A stretch of 44,264 nt of DNA. It comes from a virus. The notes below the pieces were generated by a model. It was not told the origin of the DNA, did not search any database, and saw only the letters and a program-made list of their open reading frames with translations. Made by a program: the position numbers and the translations under genes. Positions 412 to 41,875 of this stretch are shown here, in pieces. Positions within the stretch are counted from its first letter, which is position 1. Each line of letters starts with the position of its first letter. Where the stretch lies: the IMG/VR virus record IMGVR_UViG_3300049846_000087, positions 1 through 44,264 of that record. One strand, written 5' to 3'.

Positions 412-3038
412 CACTTGCCCTCCAATCCTCTCTGAAGAGTAGACACTGACATGCCTAGGGCAGAGGCTACTTCAGACAGGGTGTGTCCAGCAGCCAGCAT
501 TGACTGGGCACGACGCTTCTTTGTAGATGTCATAAGCACCTTGATCTTAGGCAATGCACGTTCCTTGACTAGATCTAGGTCTGTGTTGTTAAGAATCTGA
601 AGAAGCTTAGTATTAGTAATTGCACCTGCCTGAATGGCTTCCCATTCCTTGTCTGTGATGTCAACAAGAGTCTTCTTAGCACCTACTCTAGCACGGGCTT
701 CTTGAAGATCTCTGTATTGAATCTTCTTTAGCGTTTCCTTCTCCATGTCAGGATTAGCCTTGCGCTTTGCTTCTGATGTCGCATTGGCTATGACCTGGGC
801 TTGTCTTTCACGGGGGGCGTTCTCTAAAGCAATGGCGAGCTTTGCATTCAAAGACTCGACTTCCTTAGAGTAGACTCTCTTTGCAGAAGGGGAGGAAACT
901 AGACTTGGTGTGTTGGCTGCTTCTCTACGGGCTTCATTAGCAAGGGCCTTTAGTTTGTTACTGTGATCTGCATACACCTTCTCTACTGGGGTACCAGAAG
1001 AAAGCGTGTGGGCATCGTCAGTAACAGCGAGCTTCTTGCTCTTAGTGGTCTTAGCAACAAGCCTGCCCTTCTTGTCCACGTAGGTGTTACCAGTAGGAAG
1101 ATAGATCTTCTTTCCAGTTTCAGGATCCGTGCGGACAAGCATCTTTCTTTCAGGAACATCAGCCCTAGACTTAGCCCTAGAGATTAGCGTAGATGCGCCC
1201 GATCCATCGGCAGACTTCTGATAGCGTTCCTTTAGATTCTTGATGTTGTTCTCTTCATAAGAACGCTTGTAATCAAGCTTATGCTTGTATGCATCAATCA
1301 CTACCATGGAATGCCTGATAGCACGAGCAATCTCTTCATGAGAAGCACCCTTAATCTGCATGTCTGTGATCAGATTAGTGATGTTACCCATTTCAGGCTG
1401 AATGCGCTGCTTAGACATGGTCTGCATACCAGGATAGTACTTGTACTGCTGCTTAGGATCAAAGTTCTTAAGACCCTCTAGTGGAGGAGAAGTCTTAACA
1501 GAACCCTTGTTATTGGGAATTACTAGAACTGAATCGCCGTCAAAGTCTGCGCCAGAGAGACGCTCTGCTGTGCTAGGATGAATTCCAATAGCATCCTTTG
1601 AGTCAGTTGGAATCATCTTTCTAGCTTCGCGATTCCTATTATTGACAACAAGTTCTGGAATCTCAAAGGTTCCACCATGAGGGTGGCGAATCAGAACAAC
1701 CTTTTCTCCATCATTGTAGCCTGGAGCATAAACCTCGTTAGGCTTAAGGCTGCTGATTGGAAGAATCACTTTAGACGTAGTCCTAGGAAGACCGGCTGCC
1801 TTAAGGTGGACTGCAGAAGAATCTGCGCCCTCAGCAAAGGTTTCTAGAAGCTTCTTACGAACTGTCGGATTTGTAAGAGACATGATAGTCTCAAACTCAT
1901 TACGCTTAGACTCATACGTAAGATCAAGCTGCTGCTTAGCTAGAGTGTGAGGCTGCTTAGACAGCATCTGTGAAGAGAGCTGAGAGGCCCAGTTATTCCA
2001 ATCACCCTCTTCATTGACGATGTTCATAACGCCATGCTGCCTATCAATGGTAGAACCAAACGGGTTGTCTGGATCATCCTCACTGAATGGCTTCATAGCA
2101 TCAAGCTTGCTTTTAGCATCCTTCTTTGACTTAGTCGAGTTGTAGATGATGTCTACACCAGGAGGCATGTCATCCTTGTAAACCGCCATGCCCTTCATGT
2201 AGTGACTAGCATCTACAGCAATGCGAACCTGAGCATATCGACTAGAACCAAGAGAAATGTCGTCTACACCACGACGAACATAGATGACACCATCAGCGTT
2301 GCCACCACCATCTTCAGCCCAGTTAACCTTGACTCGCTTAGAACTGATCGAGGTCGGATACTGAATCTTTCTGGTGAATGTGACACCACCATCATCAGAT
2401 CCATCACGAACAATCTTGATCTTGTCTCGGTTAGCCATAACCTTGTTGTATGAGACGCCAGGAGCAGTAAGAACGGGAATGGTAGTCTCGAAACCTGTAC
2501 CGAGCTGAGGGACACGAACGTAGTGAACGACATAACCCTCATGCTTGAGCATTGCTACAGCAGTCTTGAACTTGTTTCGAGTAATCCCCATGTAACGCTC
2601 ATTGCCAGCACCAACGTCAATGTACTCCTTTTCACGAACAAGATCCTTGAGGAAGTTCGCAATGTTGTGGAGGACATCAAGCTTGTCCTTGGCTCCTGGA
2701 GCAAGCAGATTACGAATCGTGGATTCAGGGAGATTCATCTCACGGCCGATAGCCATGTTAGAAAGTCCCTTTTCCTTGAGCTTCATAGCTCTAGCAATTC
2801 GATATTGCTTCTCACGGTTAAGCTCGATAGATCGCATAGCACGGAATTCTGAAGTGTTCTTCAGACCCATGCCTTCTGCAATCTCTCTTTCAGTAAGCCC
2901 TTCCTTCTTCAGACGAGCAGCCATGTCAAGGAAAGACTCATTTCGACTATTCCCATCACCACCAGAACCCCACGGATAGCGACCAGAATGCCGTGGCGTA
3001 CCATAGTGGGAGAGAGCGTTTTGTTCGTCGATGATCAT
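411..3038 (-). CDS. Single-chain two-barrel RNA polymerase candidate with helix-turn-helix regions
   Basis: 875 residues. Residues 494-503 read LSGADFDGDS, the metal-binding loop of the beta-prime barrel of multisubunit RNA polymerases, preceded by an RxP (about 451-453) and an HPxxxxRL segment (487-494) as in beta-prime. Residues 281-299 (MKGMAVYKDDMPPGVDIIY) resemble the beta-subunit NKG...EDMP...GTPVDI segment that carries the second barrel lysine. Both barrels on one chain in this order is the arrangement of YonO-like and crAss-phage polymerases. Helix-turn-helix-like stretches lie near 49-60 and 90-112 and at the C terminus (about 840-873), possibly for promoter recognition. The N terminus carries LSHYGTPRHSGRYPWGSG. 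The start overlaps the upstream nuclease stop by 4 bases (ATGA). Activity is inferred from motifs; a different DFDGD-type enzyme is the main alternative. Confidence 0.72.
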   Translation of the reverse strand: MIIDEQNALSHYGTPRHSGRYPWGSGGDGNSRNESFLDMAARLKKEGLTEREIAEGMGLKNTSEFRAMRSIELNREKQYRIARAMKLKEKGLSNMAIGREMNLPESTIRNLLAPGAKDKLDVLHNIANFLKDLVREKEYIDVGAGNERYMGITRNKFKTAVAMLKHEGYVVHYVRVPQLGTGFETTIPVLTAPGVSYNKVMANRDKIKIVRDGSDDGGVTFTRKIQYPTSISSKRVKVNWAEDGGGNADGVIYVRRGVDDISLGSSRYAQVRIAVDASHYMKGMAVYKDDMPPGVDIIYNSTKSKKDAKSKLDAMKPFSEDDPDNPFGSTIDRQHGVMNIVNEEGDWNNWASQLSSQMLSKQPHTLAKQQLDLTYESKRNEFETIMSLTNPTVRKKLLETFAEGADSSAVHLKAAGLPRTTSKVILPISSLKPNEVYAPGYNDGEKVVLIRHPHGGTFEIPELVVNNRNREARKMIPTDSKDAIGIHPSTAERLSGADFDGDSVLVIPNNKGSVKTSPPLEGLKNFDPKQQYKYYPGMQTMSKQRIQPEMGNITNLITDMQIKGASHEEIARAIRHSMVVIDAYKHKLDYKRSYEENNIKNLKERYQKSADGSGASTLISRAKSRADVPERKMLVRTDPETGKKIYLPTGNTYVDKKGRLVAKTTKSKKLAVTDDAHTLSSGTPVEKVYADHSNKLKALANEARREAANTPSLVSSPSAKRVYSKEVESLNAKLAIALENAPRERQAQVIANATSEAKRKANPDMEKETLKKIQYRDLQEARARVGAKKTLVDITDKEWEAIQAGAITNTKLLQILNNTDLDLVKERALPKIKVLMTSTKKRRAQSMLAAGHTLSEVASALGMSVSTLQRGLEGK

Positions 3039-3595
3039 GACAACGCCTCAATCCTTAGCTCTTGGATACGCCGGTCAAAGACGACGATCTTATCCATGAT
3101 GTGAGCAATTTCTTCTGGATCACCGATTGTGACATCAACTTCATCGTTCTGGTAGATCCTGAATTCCATGGCAATATCAAAAGGCTTGAAGTGATACTCA
3201 AGACAGAACATAGCAGCATAAACCTTGAGCTGCGTTGGCTGTCTAGGAATCACGCCAGTCTTAAGATCATGAATTCTAAGGAAGTTTCCTCTAAACGAAA
3301 TACTGTCTGCAGTACCAAAACAGTTGTCCGAGTAGTAAAGAACCTGCTCAGAAGTCATACGGAAGCCAATAGCGTCGTTCACATACATGTTAAGAGACTT
3401 GTTACTACGTGGAAGCTTCTGACCGAGACGGATCAGATCATGTGCCAGAGCATGAAGTTCCGTTCCACGCTGTGCAGCGATGGATGAAAGGAACACTCGT
3501 TCAAGCTTCTCGTCATCGTAGTTAACCCAGTGGTACTTGCTAGCGCCGAGAAACGCGTGCTGACCTACGAGATTTGAATGCGTGTTGAAGAGCAT
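3035..3595 (-). CDS. PD-(D/E)XK nuclease, RecB/Cas4-like
   Basis: 186 residues from the ATG at 3595, chosen because GAGAGAGG lies about 6 bases upstream; ATGs at 3613 and 3649 are possible but less well placed. Motifs of the RecB/Cas4 nuclease fold appear in order: RGTELHALAH (43-52), GTADSI (94-99, acidic motif), HDLKTG (109-114, the D..K pair of the PD-(D/E)XK core) and QLKVYA (122-127). Such phage nucleases act in replication, recombination or DNA processing, usually with helicases. No cysteine cluster for an iron-sulfur site as in true Cas4 is evident. The gene overlaps the VRR-NUC gene by 56 bases and the polymerase-like gene by 4, forming one tight operon. Confidence 0.75.
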   Translation of the reverse strand: MLFNTHSNLVGQHAFLGASKYHWVNYDDEKLERVFLSSIAAQRGTELHALAHDLIRLGQKLPRSNKSLNMYVNDAIGFRMTSEQVLYYSDNCFGTADSISFRGNFLRIHDLKTGVIPRQPTQLKVYAAMFCLEYHFKPFDIAMEFRIYQNDEVDVTIGDPEEIAHIMDKIVVFDRRIQELRIEALS

Positions 3596-3869
3596 CCAGT
3601 ACCTCTCTCTCATTCTCTGGATAAATGAACGCAGCGAAAGACATCTCATCTAGCTTTTCAATGTAATACGCTTGGTTAGGCTGTTCAGGGGAATCCCAAG
3701 AAGCCTTAACCTCTAGCATCGCCCACTTATCACGATAGAAAATTGAAAGATCTGGAATACCCTGCAGGTACGCAGAGTCATTCTTCAAGACCAGACAACC
3801 GGGGAACATCTCGTTAAGAGTCTTGATCAGCGCACGCTGGTACTCTCTTTCAAGACGAGATTCTTGCAT
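3540..3869 (-). CDS. VRR-NUC domain nuclease
   Basis: 109 residues, about the size of a stand-alone phage VRR-NUC domain. The core reads QGIPDLSIF (36-44) and LEVKAS (52-57), giving the PD...ExK signature, followed by a Q/Y-rich helix (NQAYYIEKL). Stand-alone VRR-NUC proteins cut branched DNA, resembling Holliday junction resolvases, and in phages usually lie beside an SF2 helicase, as here. An AGGTG site precedes the ATG. The gene is first in a group with the RecB/Cas4-like nuclease and the polymerase-like gene. The last residues are basic (KSRRSARVSRR). Confidence 0.85.
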   Translation of the reverse strand: MQESRLEREYQRALIKTLNEMFPGCLVLKNDSAYLQGIPDLSIFYRDKWAMLEVKASWDSPEQPNQAYYIEKLDEMSFAAFIYPENEREVLDALQHAFKSRRSARVSRR

Positions 3870-32804: not shown

Positions 32805-34781
32805 TCACGCGTCGCGCGTGAAGGTCCACTCGTCGTTCTCGTTGTTAGCGAAGTAGTAGCTCGCAGACGTCGGGACCGCGTAGATGCGCAGCGAAGCGCC
32901 GGCCGCAAGAGCGGACATAGCGCCAGCGGAGACAGTAGCGTCAGTGTCGCCACGCTTGTAGGTCACACCAGTAACGCTCGGAATGGTGATGACACCGGTC
33001 GAGGCCACGAAGCTAGGCTCCGTCGGAACCACGAGAGTCGCCGAAGCACCAACCTCACGCATGATGAGAGCAGACTGCAGCTTGGTGAGAGCGCCCGAGA
33101 GACGCGTCTCGATCAGGTACTTGTACTGGTTGTAGTCGATGTCGAAGTCGTCGAACATCGAGACCTCGCCACCCTTGTCCGAGCCGATGGTGTAGTCGAC
33201 CAGGTTGACGAAGACGCCGAGAAGGTCGCTCTCAGACTCCATCGCCTCAACCTCGACAATCCGGTCCACGCGAAGCTCGGCAGCCAGCTCGTCCACCGTA
33301 CGCCAGATTCGGCGGTTCAGGGTGTCACGAGCAGTGATGAGCTTGGTGAGGAACGGGGTCGTGGTGTAGAAGGTAGGAGTGCCAGTGCCCTTGTAGAAAC
33401 GACGCTGCTCGAGAACGGTGTCCACCAGGTCCCAGGCAGTGATGTCGGCCTCGACGTAGAACGTCGTGGTGTAAGGCTCAGCCTCGAGGGCAATAGCGCG
33501 AATAGCCGCGTCAGAAACACGACCGTCAGGGATCTTGTCCTCGTCGTCAGCAGCGCGGCCGTCGCCAAAGAGGATCGCACGCGCGAGCTCCTCCTCGAGC
33601 ATAAGACGCATCTCACCCTTGAGCCACGACACGACGTCGAGGTCAGTGATGTCGATGATGTCGTCCCGGTCGAGCTTCTGCTTCTTGTAGATGGTGACAG
33701 GGGTGGTGACTCGCTTCGAGAGACCGAACCACTCCTCCTTCTTCATGTTGCCCTTGATGTAACCCTTCGCACGAGCCTCCTCGACGGTGATGTCGGCGCT
33801 CATGGTCTTGATGCGAGAGAAGGGCGAGTGGCGGGTGCCGCTGAGAACGCCGGCGACCCACTCAGTGCGACGCTTGTCCCACTCGGGGGTGTTGCTGAGA
33901 GCCTTGGCGTCGGGGAACAGAAGGTCGATGTCCTCGATGCCGTGCTGCAGAGCATAGTCCTCGAACGCAGCCTTGAGAGAGCCACCGCGCTTGGCGGCCT
34001 CAACAATGCTCTTAAGGTCGTCGTGAGAAAGCGTCGCAGCAGGAGCCTTGCTCCCATCGGCGTCACTCTCGAAGACGTTGCGCTTGCCCATGTCGTCAGT
34101 TCCTTCCTTGTGCTCGAGGGTGTCCTCGTCGCTGTTGTCGGTGGTCGTGCTGCTATCTCCGCCAGCATCGGCGGACGAGTCGTCCTCAATATCGTCGTGC
34201 TGAAGAGCCTCATTCACAAGATAGTGGACAAGATTCTTCTGCGCCTCGTTCAGGGAGTCATAAACTTCCTGAACCGTGGGGCCGTCCTCGCCATCGGCGT
34301 GGTCAACGACCTCCTCATCCGACTCAATGAACTCGAGACCGGTGTGGATGATCGCCTCATCGTCGATAACCTCGATCTCACCGTCAGCGTGCCGAAGAGC
34401 CACGTTATCGATGATCGCACCAGGGTTGGCACCCGCAAGAACAAGACTGACTTCACGAATCATACCATGAAGGACCTGCTTGCCCTTCTCCACGAGCTGA
34501 TTAGCGTGGATGGAGAGCCTGGTAATGTCTCGGTGCTGAACAAGAGTCTTGGCGCTCTGACCCTTAGGGGTGCTGTTGAAGAACGCCTCAGCCCGGACAC
34601 CCTCAGGAGTCCACTTAAGAACGGCGTGCCCCAGAACGTTGTCGGGGTCGTTGTGACCATGCTGCCAGACCAGAGGAACGGTAACGCCGTCCTGGTGCTG
34701 GAAAGCAGTCGGCATGATCACTCGGCCGTCGGAACACTTGAGCCCAGCCTTGGTTGCCCAGCCGCTAAAATCAGGCTCCAT
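32805..34781 (-). CDS. Fused prohead protease, scaffold and major capsid protein
   Basis: 658 residues. Protease domain (1-about 130): WQHGH (39-43), RDITRLSIHAN (84-94) and IREVSLVLAGANPGA (108-122), the His/Ser features of HK97-type proteases. A linker with acidic low-complexity sequence (about 195-230) acts as scaffold-like region. Capsid domain from about residue 231, MGKRNVFESDADG, to about 580, with ADITVEEARAKGYIKGNMKK and FDDFDIDYNQYKYLIETRLS. Residues about 585-658 form an Ig-like domain. The ATG at 34091 inside the gene has AAGGAAGGAA upstream and may give a separate capsid product of 428 residues. Overlaps the portal gene by 11 bases. Confidence 0.85.
   Translation of the reverse strand: MEPDFSGWATKAGLKCSDGRVIMPTAFQHQDGVTVPLVWQHGHNDPDNVLGHAVLKWTPEGVRAEAFFNSTPKGQSAKTLVQHRDITRLSIHANQLVEKGKQVLHGMIREVSLVLAGANPGAIIDNVALRHADGEIEVIDDEAIIHTGLEFIESDEEVVDHADGEDGPTVQEVYDSLNEAQKNLVHYLVNEALQHDDIEDDSSADAGGDSSTTTDNSDEDTLEHKEGTDDMGKRNVFESDADGSKAPAATLSHDDLKSIVEAAKRGGSLKAAFEDYALQHGIEDIDLLFPDAKALSNTPEWDKRRTEWVAGVLSGTRHSPFSRIKTMSADITVEEARAKGYIKGNMKKEEWFGLSKRVTTPVTIYKKQKLDRDDIIDITDLDVVSWLKGEMRLMLEEELARAILFGDGRAADDEDKIPDGRVSDAAIRAIALEAEPYTTTFYVEADITAWDLVDTVLEQRRFYKGTGTPTFYTTTPFLTKLITARDTLNRRIWRTVDELAAELRVDRIVEVEAMESESDLLGVFVNLVDYTIGSDKGGEVSMFDDFDIDYNQYKYLIETRLSGALTKLQSALIMREVGASATLVVPTEPSFVASTGVITIPSVTGVTYKRGDTDATVSAGAMSALAAGASLRIYAVPTSASYYFANNENDEWTFTRDA
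34091..34110 (-). promoter_or_regulatory. Internal ribosome binding site before the capsid part
   Basis: Within the fused gene, the minus strand reads AAGGAAGGAACTGACGACATG, giving a ribosome binding site 9 bases before the in-frame ATG of MGKRNVFESD. It could allow extra, protease-free capsid synthesis. The ATG is at codon 231. Confidence 0.45.
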
Positions 34782-36054
34782 TTTGACTGTCTCCCTTCTG
34801 ATTCATTGACGACGGCCCATTGCCGCCATTGTTACTAGGGTCATTGACATTCTGAGGCTCCTTCTGAACTGGCATGTTGCTGTTCTGGAGCTTGTCAGCC
34901 TTCGCATCCTTCACAGGACGACGTCCAACGATGGAACGAACCTCGTTCGACGTAAGAATCTCGTTTCTAGTGAACTTGTCCGCGATCTCAGCGATCGTAT
35001 TGATTGGAGCAAGCTTGAACGGGTCTCGAAGGTAGGTGATGGACTGCTTCTGGGTACGAGCAGTCTTTGTAAGGAGCACTCGTCGCATACCCTCGGTGAT
35101 GGCGGTGAGAATCGGCTCGATGGTTCGGTTGTAGTAGTTAACCATCGTTGCTTCGTCGGCACTGCCCTTCATGATTTCGTCCGTGAGACCAAGCTGGCTG
35201 TAGAGTAGAGTGGTAAGGTACTCCACCTGAGCCATGAGGTTGTTCTCGGCAGGACGATTCAGCTGAGTGATCTTCTCAGTTGCGTCGGTGTATGCAATTC
35301 CATACTGGCTGTTCTTAAGCTGGAACTCGATGTCATCCTTGCGCTGCTGTGCCTGCATCCTACGAGTCTCGTTCTTGACAACGTAAGGAAGCTGAATGAT
35401 AAGGTCCAGCTTTCCCGATCCACTTTGCTCATCGATGGAATCGAGAAGATTGAGCTTTCGAATAAGCCGCTGAAGCGTCGAGTTAGGCTCGTTCATAACT
35501 GAGTAAAACGGATTTTCAACGATAACAACGGTCTTTTTCGGAAGAGTTACCTCTTCACGCTTACCAGTCTTCTCGTTGTACAGTCTAACTCGAACGTGTT
35601 CAGGATGCCACTTGACAATCTGACCGACACGCATTGTCTTAACGTCAAATGAACCAGACTCAGTAGGACTGATCGTGGTATCGACCGGAACAATTGCAAC
35701 TACACCGTCGTCAAACAGCGAGTATGCAATGTCCTGCTTGAATGCCAATGGACTTTGATCGATGTTGGCCTCAACCTTAAGACAGTTGTTGAGTCCGCTG
35801 TCGATCTCCTCCAAATATCGATCATCATCGTCAAGACGAACATGCCGAAGATCTGCCTGAGCTACATCCAGACTGAGGCGAGTGTAAATTGAGGAGATGA
35901 TTGAGCGTTCGTTGGAGAACCTTCGATACGCCTGATCAGGACGTCGACCATAACTGGTTCCTGGAGAATATAGAACCGTGGCTTCCTGGTTCTCTTCCTG
36001 CTGGTTCGAGAACGCATTCCACGCATGCTTCAAACGGTCACGAATCTTTGCCAT
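34771..36054 (-). CDS. Portal protein, HK97-like
   Basis: 427 residues. FSNERSIISSIYTRLSLDVA, SLFDDGVVAIVPVDTTISPT, YNEKTGKREEVTLPKKTVVI and LDSIDEQSGSGKLDLIIQLP run into the crown/wing region, with LGLTDEIMKGSADEATMVNY and RRVLLTKTARTQKQSITYLR toward the end. A Q/N-rich disordered tail follows (QNVNDPSNNGGNGPSSMNQ). Portals of this type form the dodecamer through which DNA is packed. GAGGAGGTGACGT precedes the ATG. Downstream it overlaps the capsid fusion by 11 bases. Confidence 0.87.
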   Translation of the reverse strand: MAKIRDRLKHAWNAFSNQQEENQEATVLYSPGTSYGRRPDQAYRRFSNERSIISSIYTRLSLDVAQADLRHVRLDDDDRYLEEIDSGLNNCLKVEANIDQSPLAFKQDIAYSLFDDGVVAIVPVDTTISPTESGSFDVKTMRVGQIVKWHPEHVRVRLYNEKTGKREEVTLPKKTVVIVENPFYSVMNEPNSTLQRLIRKLNLLDSIDEQSGSGKLDLIIQLPYVVKNETRRMQAQQRKDDIEFQLKNSQYGIAYTDATEKITQLNRPAENNLMAQVEYLTTLLYSQLGLTDEIMKGSADEATMVNYYNRTIEPILTAITEGMRRVLLTKTARTQKQSITYLRDPFKLAPINTIAEIADKFTRNEILTSNEVRSIVGRRPVKDAKADKLQNSNMPVQKEPQNVNDPSNNGGNGPSSMNQKGDSQNGA

Positions 36055-36067
36055 ACGTCACCTCCTC

Positions 36068-37813
36068 TCATTCGAATGCCTCCTTGTTGAGCTTGTATGC
36101 AACCCAGGCGTCCATCAGAGCCGCAACGTTGTCGATTTTCTCTTCCTGCCTACGCTTCAAGAGCTTTCGGTTACCATTAGTATCTTCGAGAGTGATGGCA
36201 TTGCCCATTGCGAATGACATAAGCGACTGATCAAATAGAAGAAGTCTCTCTTCGCTCAGCTTCTTAAGCTCGCCTAGGGGCACGGACTCAGTCCGAGCGC
36301 CCTGAATCACCTTCTCAATACCAAATGGTCCGTTTTCCTGCTCCCAACGAGTTACAAATTCCTTAGCGTTGTACGGGTCAAACCCGAACGAGCGAACGTC
36401 GTACTTTGACCTCTCGATGAACGCGTCGAGATCGTCATAGACTTCCATCATATCCAGGACAGTCCCCTCCAAAACATGGAGACTTCCTTCCTTGATGAAC
36501 TCGTCATACTTCATTCGCATAGCGCCAGGAAGCTTCATCAGGGTCAGCGTTGAAATATAACTTCGAGTCTTCACTCCGAACTTCCCGTTAGAAAGAGGGA
36601 ATAGGAATGTGAAGGCGCAGAAGTCGTCGCCCTGTGAAAGGTCGGCACCAAGAGAACACGGGAGTTCCCAGAATTCTCGACTACGGTGCGGAAGAGTTTC
36701 CTCGTAAGTGAAGAAATACGTGTATCCCTCCATCGGGATCCCAAACCGCTTAGCGAGGATGTCGTTCCTAGCAGCAGGAGCCTTCTCTGCTCGCTCAACG
36801 TCCAACTGGTACGTCTCGTACGTTACTGTGAACCCTAGATTTGGGTTGGCCTTGACCCACATGTCTGGGTTACCGACCTCTTCGAGTTCATCGAGCTTGT
36901 AGTGCCAGATGGAAATATGAGGAGCGAGATACTCTCCCTTCAAGATGTCCTGGAGCTCCATCTTGATCGTGTCTCCGGAACCATTACGAACAGTTCCCTC
37001 AGAACTGATGGCTACAATCAAGTAGTCGTCAAGTTTAGAGGCTCCCTGCTCAATAGCACCGATGACATCCTCTCTAAGATCTCCAGACAACCATTCGTCA
37101 ACAGTAGACACCTTACATCGAAGACCCTGAAGCTTGTTGATAGCCATCGGACGGATCTCCAGGAGTGATCCAGTAAGAAAGTTCTCAACGCCCTTCTTGG
37201 TTGATGCAAGCTTCACACGATTTGCACGAGACCCAGTCGTGTTCTGCAGAGATCCATCTGTCAGGAATTTGAACAAAGGCCCGCGTGCGCGCGTGATAGC
37301 AGTACGAAAAGGCGACATGACCTCTTCGGCCTGTTTCATCGTAGGCGCTGTCGTAATCTGATGCGTCGTTGCTGTATCGACATTCAGGAAGAACGCCTGA
37401 AGACAGAACGCATACATAGACTTGGCTGCACCGCGAGCGACGATAAGGTACTGCTTGGTCGTCAGTCGCTTCTTGATGGTCTTGTTGACGTACCGACCTG
37501 GCTGTCCATCTTGACCTGGCTCCCAGACACTTCTATCGACGAAGTAATACCAACAGAAAATCTGTTCAGCCCAGAGTTTGAACGTATCGAGCAAATATAG
37601 GTCAGATCCATCAGTAAGTGTCAGTTCTTGCTCACAATACTTGACAAATCCATCCATCGCTCGGTCGTCATAGTAAATCTTAGGGTTGGCGATGAGCCAG
37701 TCAATGCGATTCATCTCCATAGCGATCTCACGGTTTACCGGAATTTCGCCGCGGATAACTTGCTCGCGAAATCGACCATAATACAGCGGTACTGCTGTAT
37801 TAGAAAGACCCAT
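36068..37813 (-). CDS. Terminase large subunit
   Basis: 581 residues. ATPase: Walker A-like ARGAAKS (126-132), DEAD-like VSTVDEWLSG (235-244) and ISSEGTVRNG (269-278). Nuclease: LGADLSQGDDFCAFTF (388-403), RSFGFDPYNA (474-483) and EEKIDNVAALMDAW (557-570) with acidic residues for two-metal catalysis. It pumps DNA into proheads and cuts the concatemer. AAGGAGGGTTGGT precedes the ATG. The small-terminase-like gene is 5.7 kb away, not adjacent as is usual. Confidence 0.93.
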   Translation of the reverse strand: MGLSNTAVPLYYGRFREQVIRGEIPVNREIAMEMNRIDWLIANPKIYYDDRAMDGFVKYCEQELTLTDGSDLYLLDTFKLWAEQIFCWYYFVDRSVWEPGQDGQPGRYVNKTIKKRLTTKQYLIVARGAAKSMYAFCLQAFFLNVDTATTHQITTAPTMKQAEEVMSPFRTAITRARGPLFKFLTDGSLQNTTGSRANRVKLASTKKGVENFLTGSLLEIRPMAINKLQGLRCKVSTVDEWLSGDLREDVIGAIEQGASKLDDYLIVAISSEGTVRNGSGDTIKMELQDILKGEYLAPHISIWHYKLDELEEVGNPDMWVKANPNLGFTVTYETYQLDVERAEKAPAARNDILAKRFGIPMEGYTYFFTYEETLPHRSREFWELPCSLGADLSQGDDFCAFTFLFPLSNGKFGVKTRSYISTLTLMKLPGAMRMKYDEFIKEGSLHVLEGTVLDMMEVYDDLDAFIERSKYDVRSFGFDPYNAKEFVTRWEQENGPFGIEKVIQGARTESVPLGELKKLSEERLLLFDQSLMSFAMGNAITLEDTNGNRKLLKRRQEEKIDNVAALMDAWVAYKLNKEAFE

Positions 37814-37827
37814 ACCAACCCTCCTTT

Positions 37828-38205
37828 CTACTTCTTACGATGGCGACCCTTACTTGCGCCAAGAGCATTTGCAATCTGCTTAGTAGCTACCTCATTACCA
37901 AGAGAACTGATCTGCTTCTTAGCGATGTTCTCAATAATATCGACGGTAAACTTCTTCCCATCGAAGTACTTCTTCTTCTCGGTGCCCGTAAGTCGAGCGT
38001 AATTCTGCTCGAGGTTCATCCTAGTCACCAGATCCTGCAGGTCCTTGTTGCTGACTGCACTGGTTCCATGCTTCTTGACGATCTTAAGCGTCTCCTTAGC
38101 CTTAGACGCATCGTCAGAGGTAGGACTAGAACTAGGATTCTTTCGGCGAACACCCCACTTCATACCCTTGATTCCGAAGTGCTCAAGGGAACCCTTCCCA
38201 GACAC
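37828..38205 (-). CDS. GMKWG-motif protein encoded next to the terminase
   Basis: 125 residues, GTG start at 38205 overlapping the previous stop (TAGTG). The N terminus MSGKGSLEHFGIKGMKWGVR contains the HFGxxGMKWG motif seen at the ends of many phage proteins, then a flexible P/S/K segment (RRKNPSSSPTSDDASKAKET) and a basic helical domain (KKKYFDGKKFTVDIIENIAK). The motif, shared in outline with the polymerase-like protein (LSHYGTPRHSGRYPWGSG), may be a packaging or assembly tag. Probable minor head component; function not known. Confidence 0.7.
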   Translation of the reverse strand: MSGKGSLEHFGIKGMKWGVRRKNPSSSPTSDDASKAKETLKIVKKHGTSAVSNKDLQDLVTRMNLEQNYARLTGTEKKKYFDGKKFTVDIIENIAKKQISSLGNEVATKQIANALGASKGRHRKK

Positions 38206-41035: not shown

Positions 41036-41875
41036 TTAACCTCCCAGTACGAGTGCGATTGCTACCGATGAACCGCCAGATCCACTTGGACCGGCTGGTC
41101 CCTGAGGACCGGTTGCGCCAGTCGGGCCTTGTGGTCCCTGAGGACCGGTGGCACCAGTTGTACCCTGAGGTCCTTGCGCGCCCGTAGCGCCTGCGGGACC
41201 TTGCGGACCAGTGGCACCAACAAGAGAAGCAAGCCAAGCAGTCAGGTTCCCAACAAATCCCTGAGATACTGCAAGCTCATAAGCACTAAGACCATTACTA
41301 CCAGCAGACCCTGCGGGGCCCTGGGGACCGGTTGCGCCTGTGGCACCAGTAGAGCCTGTGTCACCCTTCAGACCCTGTGGGCCCTGAGGACCGGTAGCAC
41401 CATCAGCACCAGGAATACCCTGAGGACCCTGAGCTCCTGTCGAGCCGGTGTCGCCCTTTAGACCCTGTGGCCCCTGAGGTCCGGTAGCACCTGTAGATCC
41501 CGTGTCGCCCTTTAGACCCTGAGGGCCCTGAGGACCGGTTGCGCCAGTAAAACCAGCGGGACCCTGAGGGCCGGTAGCGCCCGCAGCACCATCAGCACCA
41601 GGAAGACCCTGAGGACCTTGAGGCCCGGCAGGACCAGGCGGACCCTGTGCGCCCTCAACGCCATCAAGAACCGCGTCCACTAGTGCATCATGAATAAGAG
41701 CCGCAATTGCAACCTGGTCCACGAAATAGTCAAGGTCCGTCCAAAGACCGTAGCCGTTACCGACCTTGAATCTATTAGTATCGGACTCCCACCCGATCTC
41801 TCCAGAGCGGAGAGTAGGATTCTTCTCGGTCCACTCAGCGGCAGTACCGCGACGGACCTGGATCCTGTACCTCAC
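41036..41875 (-). CDS. Collagen-like tail fibre protein
   Basis: 279 residues, GTG start at 41875 with GGAGG 6 bases upstream. N-terminal domain ([20 protein letters not shown] ... [20 protein letters not shown]), seen in phage fibre N termini, then a collagen region of GXY triplets (about residues 72-270) with recurring [10 protein letters not shown] and [10 protein letters not shown] units, interrupted once by [20 protein letters not shown] (about 197-216). Such rods form triple helices and hold distal receptor-binding domains. The C terminus is short ([15 protein letters not shown]), so adjacent genes may supply the tip. Confidence 0.87.
41080..41660 (-). repeat. DNA repeats encoding collagen-type GXY triplets
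   Basis: Tandem near-identical blocks of CCCTGAGGACCGGT, TTTAGACCCTGTGGGCCCTG and similar, with a period of 9-18 bases on the coding frame, from the GXY repeats of the fibre gene. Three copies of an 18-residue unit with KGDTGSTG are visible. They are prone to slippage and recombination. They are not CRISPR. Confidence 0.85.

Follow-up and report, generated by a model that had tools for sequence, protein, structure and literature searches.

The window that we analysed is the whole 44,264-nucleotide stretch of IMG/VR virus record IMGVR_UViG_3300049846_000087 (positions 1 to 44,264). It encodes a single-chain RNA polymerase and, beside the terminase gene, a small protein, both of which carry a short tag near the N-terminus (Table 1). 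Pfam and PHROG profile searches also identified tail genes, a primase/polymerase, a helicase and a Cas4-like nuclease, and a collagen-like repeat tail fibre protein is encoded upstream of the terminase block (41036-41875). In this linear genome the polymerase gene comes after the replication genes and overlaps the exonuclease gene, the end of which shares four bases with the polymerase start. The fusion of prohead protease and capsid protein in one ORF characterises the tag-bearing phages as a group and is present in 47 of 48 tag-bearing contigs.

Table 1. Features of the window that bear on the tag and its two carriers.
Feature	Position	Strand	Details
Two-barrel RNA polymerase, single-chain, 875 aa	411..3038	-	phrog_4291, E=0
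Polymerase C-terminal HTH	429..521	-	Residues 840-870; Pfam HTH_23, HTH_38
DFDGD active-site motif of polymerase	1533..1547	-	Residues 498-502; invariant in 89 aligned homologues
Polymerase N-terminal helical HTH region	2700..2933	-	Residues 36-113; Pfam HTH and sigma-70 region 4; model helices
Tag form 2, LSHYGTPRHSGRYPWGSG	2961..3014	-	Residues 9-26 of the 875-aa polymerase; translation
Cas4/RecB-like exonuclease	3035..3649	-	phrog_3953, E=3e-79
Fused prohead protease and major capsid protein	32805..34781	-	phrog_3270, E=6e-228; 658-aa ORF
Portal protein	34771..36054	-	PF04860, E=4e-15
Terminase large subunit	36068..37813	-	PF20441, E=4.6e-31
125-aa tagged protein adjoining terminase	37828..38205	-	Tag and C-terminal helical module
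Tag form 1, LEHFGIKGMKWGVRR	38143..38187	-	Residues 7-21 of the 125-aa protein; DUF7211, E=1e-10

The phrog_4291 profile ('RNA-dependent RNA polymerase') spans residues 3-873 of the polymerase, whose family has previously been annotated either as 'HTH DNA-binding protein' or as 'RdRP'; Pfam places HTH regions at both ends of the protein, which has a net charge of +0.035 per residue. Sequence profiles returned HTH-like and weak matches only among solved structures, the best relevant one being a tape tail measure protein (8h2n, E=0.69), and a fold search was therefore used instead, with an AlphaFold model built on an 85-sequence alignment (mean pLDDT 87.7). The best solved folds were QDE-1 (Z 15.8 over 378 residues) and plant RDR2 (Z 15.6), while the phage enzymes 8f5m and 8f72 fit at Z 13.2 and 13.1. 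The model has the double-psi-barrel fold and the protein the DxDGD motif that define QDE-1-like polymerases; RNA synthesis itself is predicted. The motif is also found in YonO of Bacillus phage SPbeta, a single-chain phage RNA polymerase; YonO has no profile-level sequence similarity to the window polymerase family, and neither YonO nor the 49 kb of SPbeta around it contains the tag. The closest solved phage folds, 8f5m and 8f72, are those of gp64-type enzymes. Since gp64 of phage P23-45 is a non-virion RNA polymerase (PMC10770324), the fold by itself is no argument for a virion enzyme.

Translation of the polymerase gene begins MIIDEQNALSHYGTPRHSGRYPWGSG. The sequence-only reading had the protein starting with the tag; the true start is MIIDEQNA, and the tag is near-terminal rather than terminal, with HYGTPRHSGRYPWGSG at residues 11-26. 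We refer to the corresponding pattern, HYG..RHSGRYPWGSG, as form 2. Residues 1-4 and 6-31 have pLDDT values below 50 in the model, that is, they are predicted to be disordered, and the tag would form a floppy tail ahead of a QDE-1-like two-barrel enzyme. Among solved chains the tag itself found no match.

Most rows of the 89-sequence polymerase alignment had been chosen by the tag pattern, so we judged tag conservation on an unbiased set of 71 homologues with complete N-termini, fetched by catalytic-core patterns alone. The tag is present in 69 of these, as the exact pattern in 61 and as a near variant in eight (GRYPYGSG, GRYEWGSG and GRYPKGSG among them); the remaining two show an apparent frameshift within it. 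Such a frameshift is seen at the polymerase ORF starts of contigs L287 and L303, in genes that are otherwise full-length, and may be a sequencing error or a real change. Conservation is low in the residues preceding the tag. The stretch covering the tag itself ranks 43rd of 860 for conservation in a smaller core-selected subset, and to call it as conserved as the active site would be an overstatement. Neither the form 2 pattern nor that of the second form described below arises in 5.8 million shuffled residues. The earlier claim that the polymerase and the 125-residue protein have a tag in common thus holds: the tag is real.

A position near start codons is also what one would expect of a DNA or RNA element, such as a translation or promoter signal, that is coding by chance. 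However, SGRYPWGSG, with 234 copies, is encoded by 204 distinct DNA sequences, all synonymous codons being in use, and internal copies of the tag lie far from any start. The variety of codons indicates that the constraint acts on the protein, and we rejected the nucleic-acid reading, which we regard as having next to no chance of being correct. A peptide that is disordered yet conserved is, in turn, one that is presumably recognised by another molecule.

The 125-residue protein begins (V/M)SGKGSLEHFGIKGMKWGVRR and matches the 25-residue Pfam family DUF7211 (PF23847) at 41.2 bits against a cut-off of 27. Its pattern, HxG[VI]KGMKWGV[RK]R, is referred to as form 1. The 875-residue polymerase has no DUF7211 match at E<=1; we are therefore dealing with two tag forms rather than with one sequence. 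Some longer tagged proteins of other phages end in the C-terminal helical module of the 125-residue protein. Scanned for the GMKWG pattern, IMG/VR yielded 249 tagged ORFs at 117 loci, with up to eight matches in 5.5 kb; for 86% of the tags the distance to the N-terminus is at most 60 residues, 24 ORFs have two tags, and some tags, frequently second copies, are internal. Of 238 tags, none comes within 40 residues of the C-terminus. The suggestion that GMKWG motifs recur at the ends of unrelated phage proteins is accordingly correct for N-termini and wrong for C-termini.

The proteins behind the tag, to which we refer as cargo, are diverse, and the phenomenon extends far beyond the pair first noticed. 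With the tags masked, the 303 tagged non-polymerase ORFs of the fetched loci fall into 112 similarity groups, the largest of which reaches 160 members because modules are shared. Six tagged genes surround the terminase of Gordonia phage Mossy, with annotations that include RNA ligase and acetyltransferase, and Rhodococcus phage ReqiPepy6 has eight tagged genes. Among 122 tagged proteins scanned with Pfam, nine contain papain-fold glutamine deamidase domains, and others contain GNAT acetyltransferase, 2H phosphoesterase or P-loop ATPase domains. Tagged glutamine-deamidase-like domains of the papain fold (PF15644), a host-modifying type, are encoded in contigs L334 (3066-3809) and L188 (4209-5225). 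Tagged 2H phosphoesterases of the 2'-5' RNA ligase family are found in contigs L123 (6619-8340) and L124 (2163-3269) and, by analogy, could be enzymes that are delivered and whose targets are cyclic nucleotide defence signals or RNA.

The two forms are connected by the cargo itself. The terminase-adjacent arrays of some phages carry form 2, for example MHYGVGHDKGGHSGRYPWGSGK, and homologous cargo proteins are found with either form. Form 1 and form 2 homologues of a P-loop cargo protein are 40% identical over 188 amino acids, papain-fold deamidase homologues with different forms match at E=6e-21, and a 251-residue protein is homologous to the N-terminal half of a GNAT-bearing protein, with different forms at the equivalent place. 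In contig L341 a form 2 polymerase and a form 2 cargo protein occur together. These cases are the strongest evidence that the polymerase tag and the GMKWG tag are interchangeable and serve one function. An array in contig L025 contains, along with three form 2 genes, a third-looking variant of the tag, LYIMHYNKNHDPSTGRFTWGSK (720-1211).

The tag and the polymerase co-occur closely. Among 50,697 phage records, the polymerase and a 20-residue GMKWG query gave equal record counts in each of five genera (Arthrobacter 95, Gordonia 55, Streptomyces 54, Curtobacterium 7 and Microbacterium 4), these being totals per genus rather than matches accession by accession. The polymerase is present on 19 of 20 long GMKWG contigs, DUF7211 on 21 of 23 long polymerase contigs, and the polymerase in 22 of 28 bacterial genomes retrieved by the GMKWG pattern. 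Of 200 Lachnospiraceae genomes (Hungatella family), the same four contain polymerase and tag, and a full match to just one of the two occurs in no genome; in the four, the tagged genes follow the polymerase on its strand, 2-10 kb downstream, which places the polymerase just before the packaging block in an unbroken genome. Twelve 'Siphovirus' records have the polymerase and lack GMKWG, and the one of them that we examined has no annotated terminase or head genes. Record KY053532 ('Siphovirus 29632, complete genome'; our L399) has a tagged polymerase-family gene and no annotated terminase, portal or capsid gene, and is probably partial. Co-occurrence is partly due to shared descent, as the carriers are one related phage group. 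Together with the exchange of forms between cargo homologues, the near-perfect co-occurrence supports the proposal of one portable tag in two versions.

What the tag does was approached through the position and composition of its carriers. On 21 long contigs all 61 DUF7211 matches share the strand of the capsid gene, and 58 are located upstream of that gene at a distance of no more than 15 kb (median 3.7 kb). With tags masked, the median net charge per residue is +0.063 for the tagged proteins and -0.024 for 132 untagged CDS of the same phages (p=2e-9). The charge bias and the terminase, portal and capsid neighbourhood are both consistent with the idea that the tag is a packaging signal. The place of the polymerase gene by the replication and exonuclease genes would, taken alone, suggest early synthesis, which counts against loading into the virion. 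That junction is what might be expected if the tag were an interaction motif that gathers proteins on an intracellular phage factor (DNA, a membrane or a hub protein) and had nothing to do with the virion, and a disordered conserved peptide would suit any such hub. On the other hand, the tagged non-polymerase genes are nearly all confined to the packaging and head block, and basic cargo fits a DNA-filled capsid. Both tagged proteins of Lactococcus phage 1706, considered next, are moreover labelled structural. We regard gathering inside the cell as improbable.

In phage 1706 (EU081845, original GenBank record) exactly two proteins have tags. One is orf7, which adjoins the terminase and has two form 1 tags, and the other is orf75, the polymerase, with the tag LQHYGTKRHSGRYPWGSG. 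The depositors labelled both 'structural protein', a bare label given to 11 of the 76 ORFs of this phage with 'major structural protein' counted in; the chance of both tagged ORFs bearing it is p=0.019. RefSeq later renamed orf75 'RNA-dependent RNA polymerase'. The labels also appear in non-structural regions (orf62, orf71 and orf75), which suggests that they came from virion proteomics. The group behind the 2008 work on this phage (Garneau, Tremblay and Moineau) reportedly used LC-MS/MS, and we assume that mass spectrometry was the basis of the labels. A literature search found no virion proteomics of tag-bearing phages; the proteome of Thermobifida phage P318 was set aside, as this phage has separate scaffold and capsid genes and its table contains no such polymerase. 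Presence of the tagged proteins in virions, backed as it is by the database label of one phage, is probable. As for the packaging signal that had been proposed, labels, neighbourhood and basic cargo all speak for it, and packaging of the tagged proteins into virions is well supported, if indirectly.

The same labels would also fit a scheme in which the tag serves as a contact in particle assembly and its other carriers are normal parts of the head or connector, the polymerase having captured the motif for another use: the name structural protein is given to orf7 and to its relatives, and many tagged proteins are small and of unassigned fold. Yet the number of tagged genes varies (one in this window beside the polymerase, eight in ReqiPepy6), as does their identity, many are enzymes, and the polymerase retains its tag in nearly every homologue of the core-fetched set. 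Such a structural role seems to us less probable still than gathering inside the cell.

We therefore consider it likely that forms 1 and 2 are interchangeable versions of one portable virion-loading tag, which loads the polymerase and effectors that would then be ejected with the DNA. The short disordered tag, usually N-terminal, would be read by a conserved part of the prohead, for which the portal or the fused protease-capsid/scaffold protein is a candidate. The polymerase, together with basic cargo proteins that differ from phage to phage, would become trapped in the capsid during assembly, stay with the DNA and, as in the capsid targeting of T4 and P1, leave through the tail on ejection. 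The injected polymerase would then begin to transcribe the phage genome ahead of all phage protein synthesis, and the remaining cargo may modify the host or counter its defences, as polyvalent injected effectors are predicted to do. That the polymerase transcribes the entering genome is suggested by analogy with the virion RNA polymerases of N4, crAss-like phages and P23-45.

Parts of this scheme have precedents. Capsid-targeting sequences are known from T4 IPIII (10 amino acids) and P1 DarB (within the N-terminal 30 amino acids) (PMC10229621, PMC9024508), where a short N-terminal peptide directs proteins to the inside of the head, to be delivered along with the DNA; the tag, likewise short and N-terminal, is borne by proteins encoded in the head region (86% within 60 residues; 58 of 61 within 15 kb). 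The T4 sequence is cleaved by the prohead protease. The P1 Dar proteins share no sequence consensus (PMC9024508), whereas here one conserved tag with two swappable forms is found on scores of unrelated cargos and a polymerase. The virion RNA polymerases of N4, crAss-like phages and P23-45 (gp96) are thought to enter with the DNA, and those of the latter two are two-barrel enzymes like the window polymerase (PMC10770324). Unlike them, fused as they are to giant virion or tape-measure proteins, the window polymerase is a stand-alone protein of 875 residues with a disordered tag. Polyvalent and MuF-fused effectors are host-modifying phage proteins predicted to be packaged and injected (PMC5512222); their carrier is a MuF or portal domain rather than a short tag, and no MuF family was among the Pfam matches of the 122 tagged proteins at E<=0.001. 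In full-text literature searches no paper names DUF7211, and GMKWG returned one unrelated match and nothing relevant. While capsid-targeting peptides and virion polymerases are already known, one conserved tag on a polymerase and scores of unrelated proteins is undescribed in the literature that we searched.

Collectively, we lean towards the view that a large group of siphophages, with hosts among Actinobacteria and Firmicutes, relies on one portable addressing peptide, in either of two swappable forms, for the loading of its own polymerase and of an open-ended arsenal of effectors into virions. This would amount to a general delivery code, with some 16 residues being enough to recruit new cargo. 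If this is true, a sequence rule would predict which proteins enter the host with the DNA in hundreds of sequenced phages and many metagenomic ones, the polymerase family would gain a virion role and DUF7211 would become a loading signal. The short swappable tag would, moreover, lend itself to functional tests in phages grown in the laboratory on Lactococcus, Gordonia, Arthrobacter or Streptomyces.
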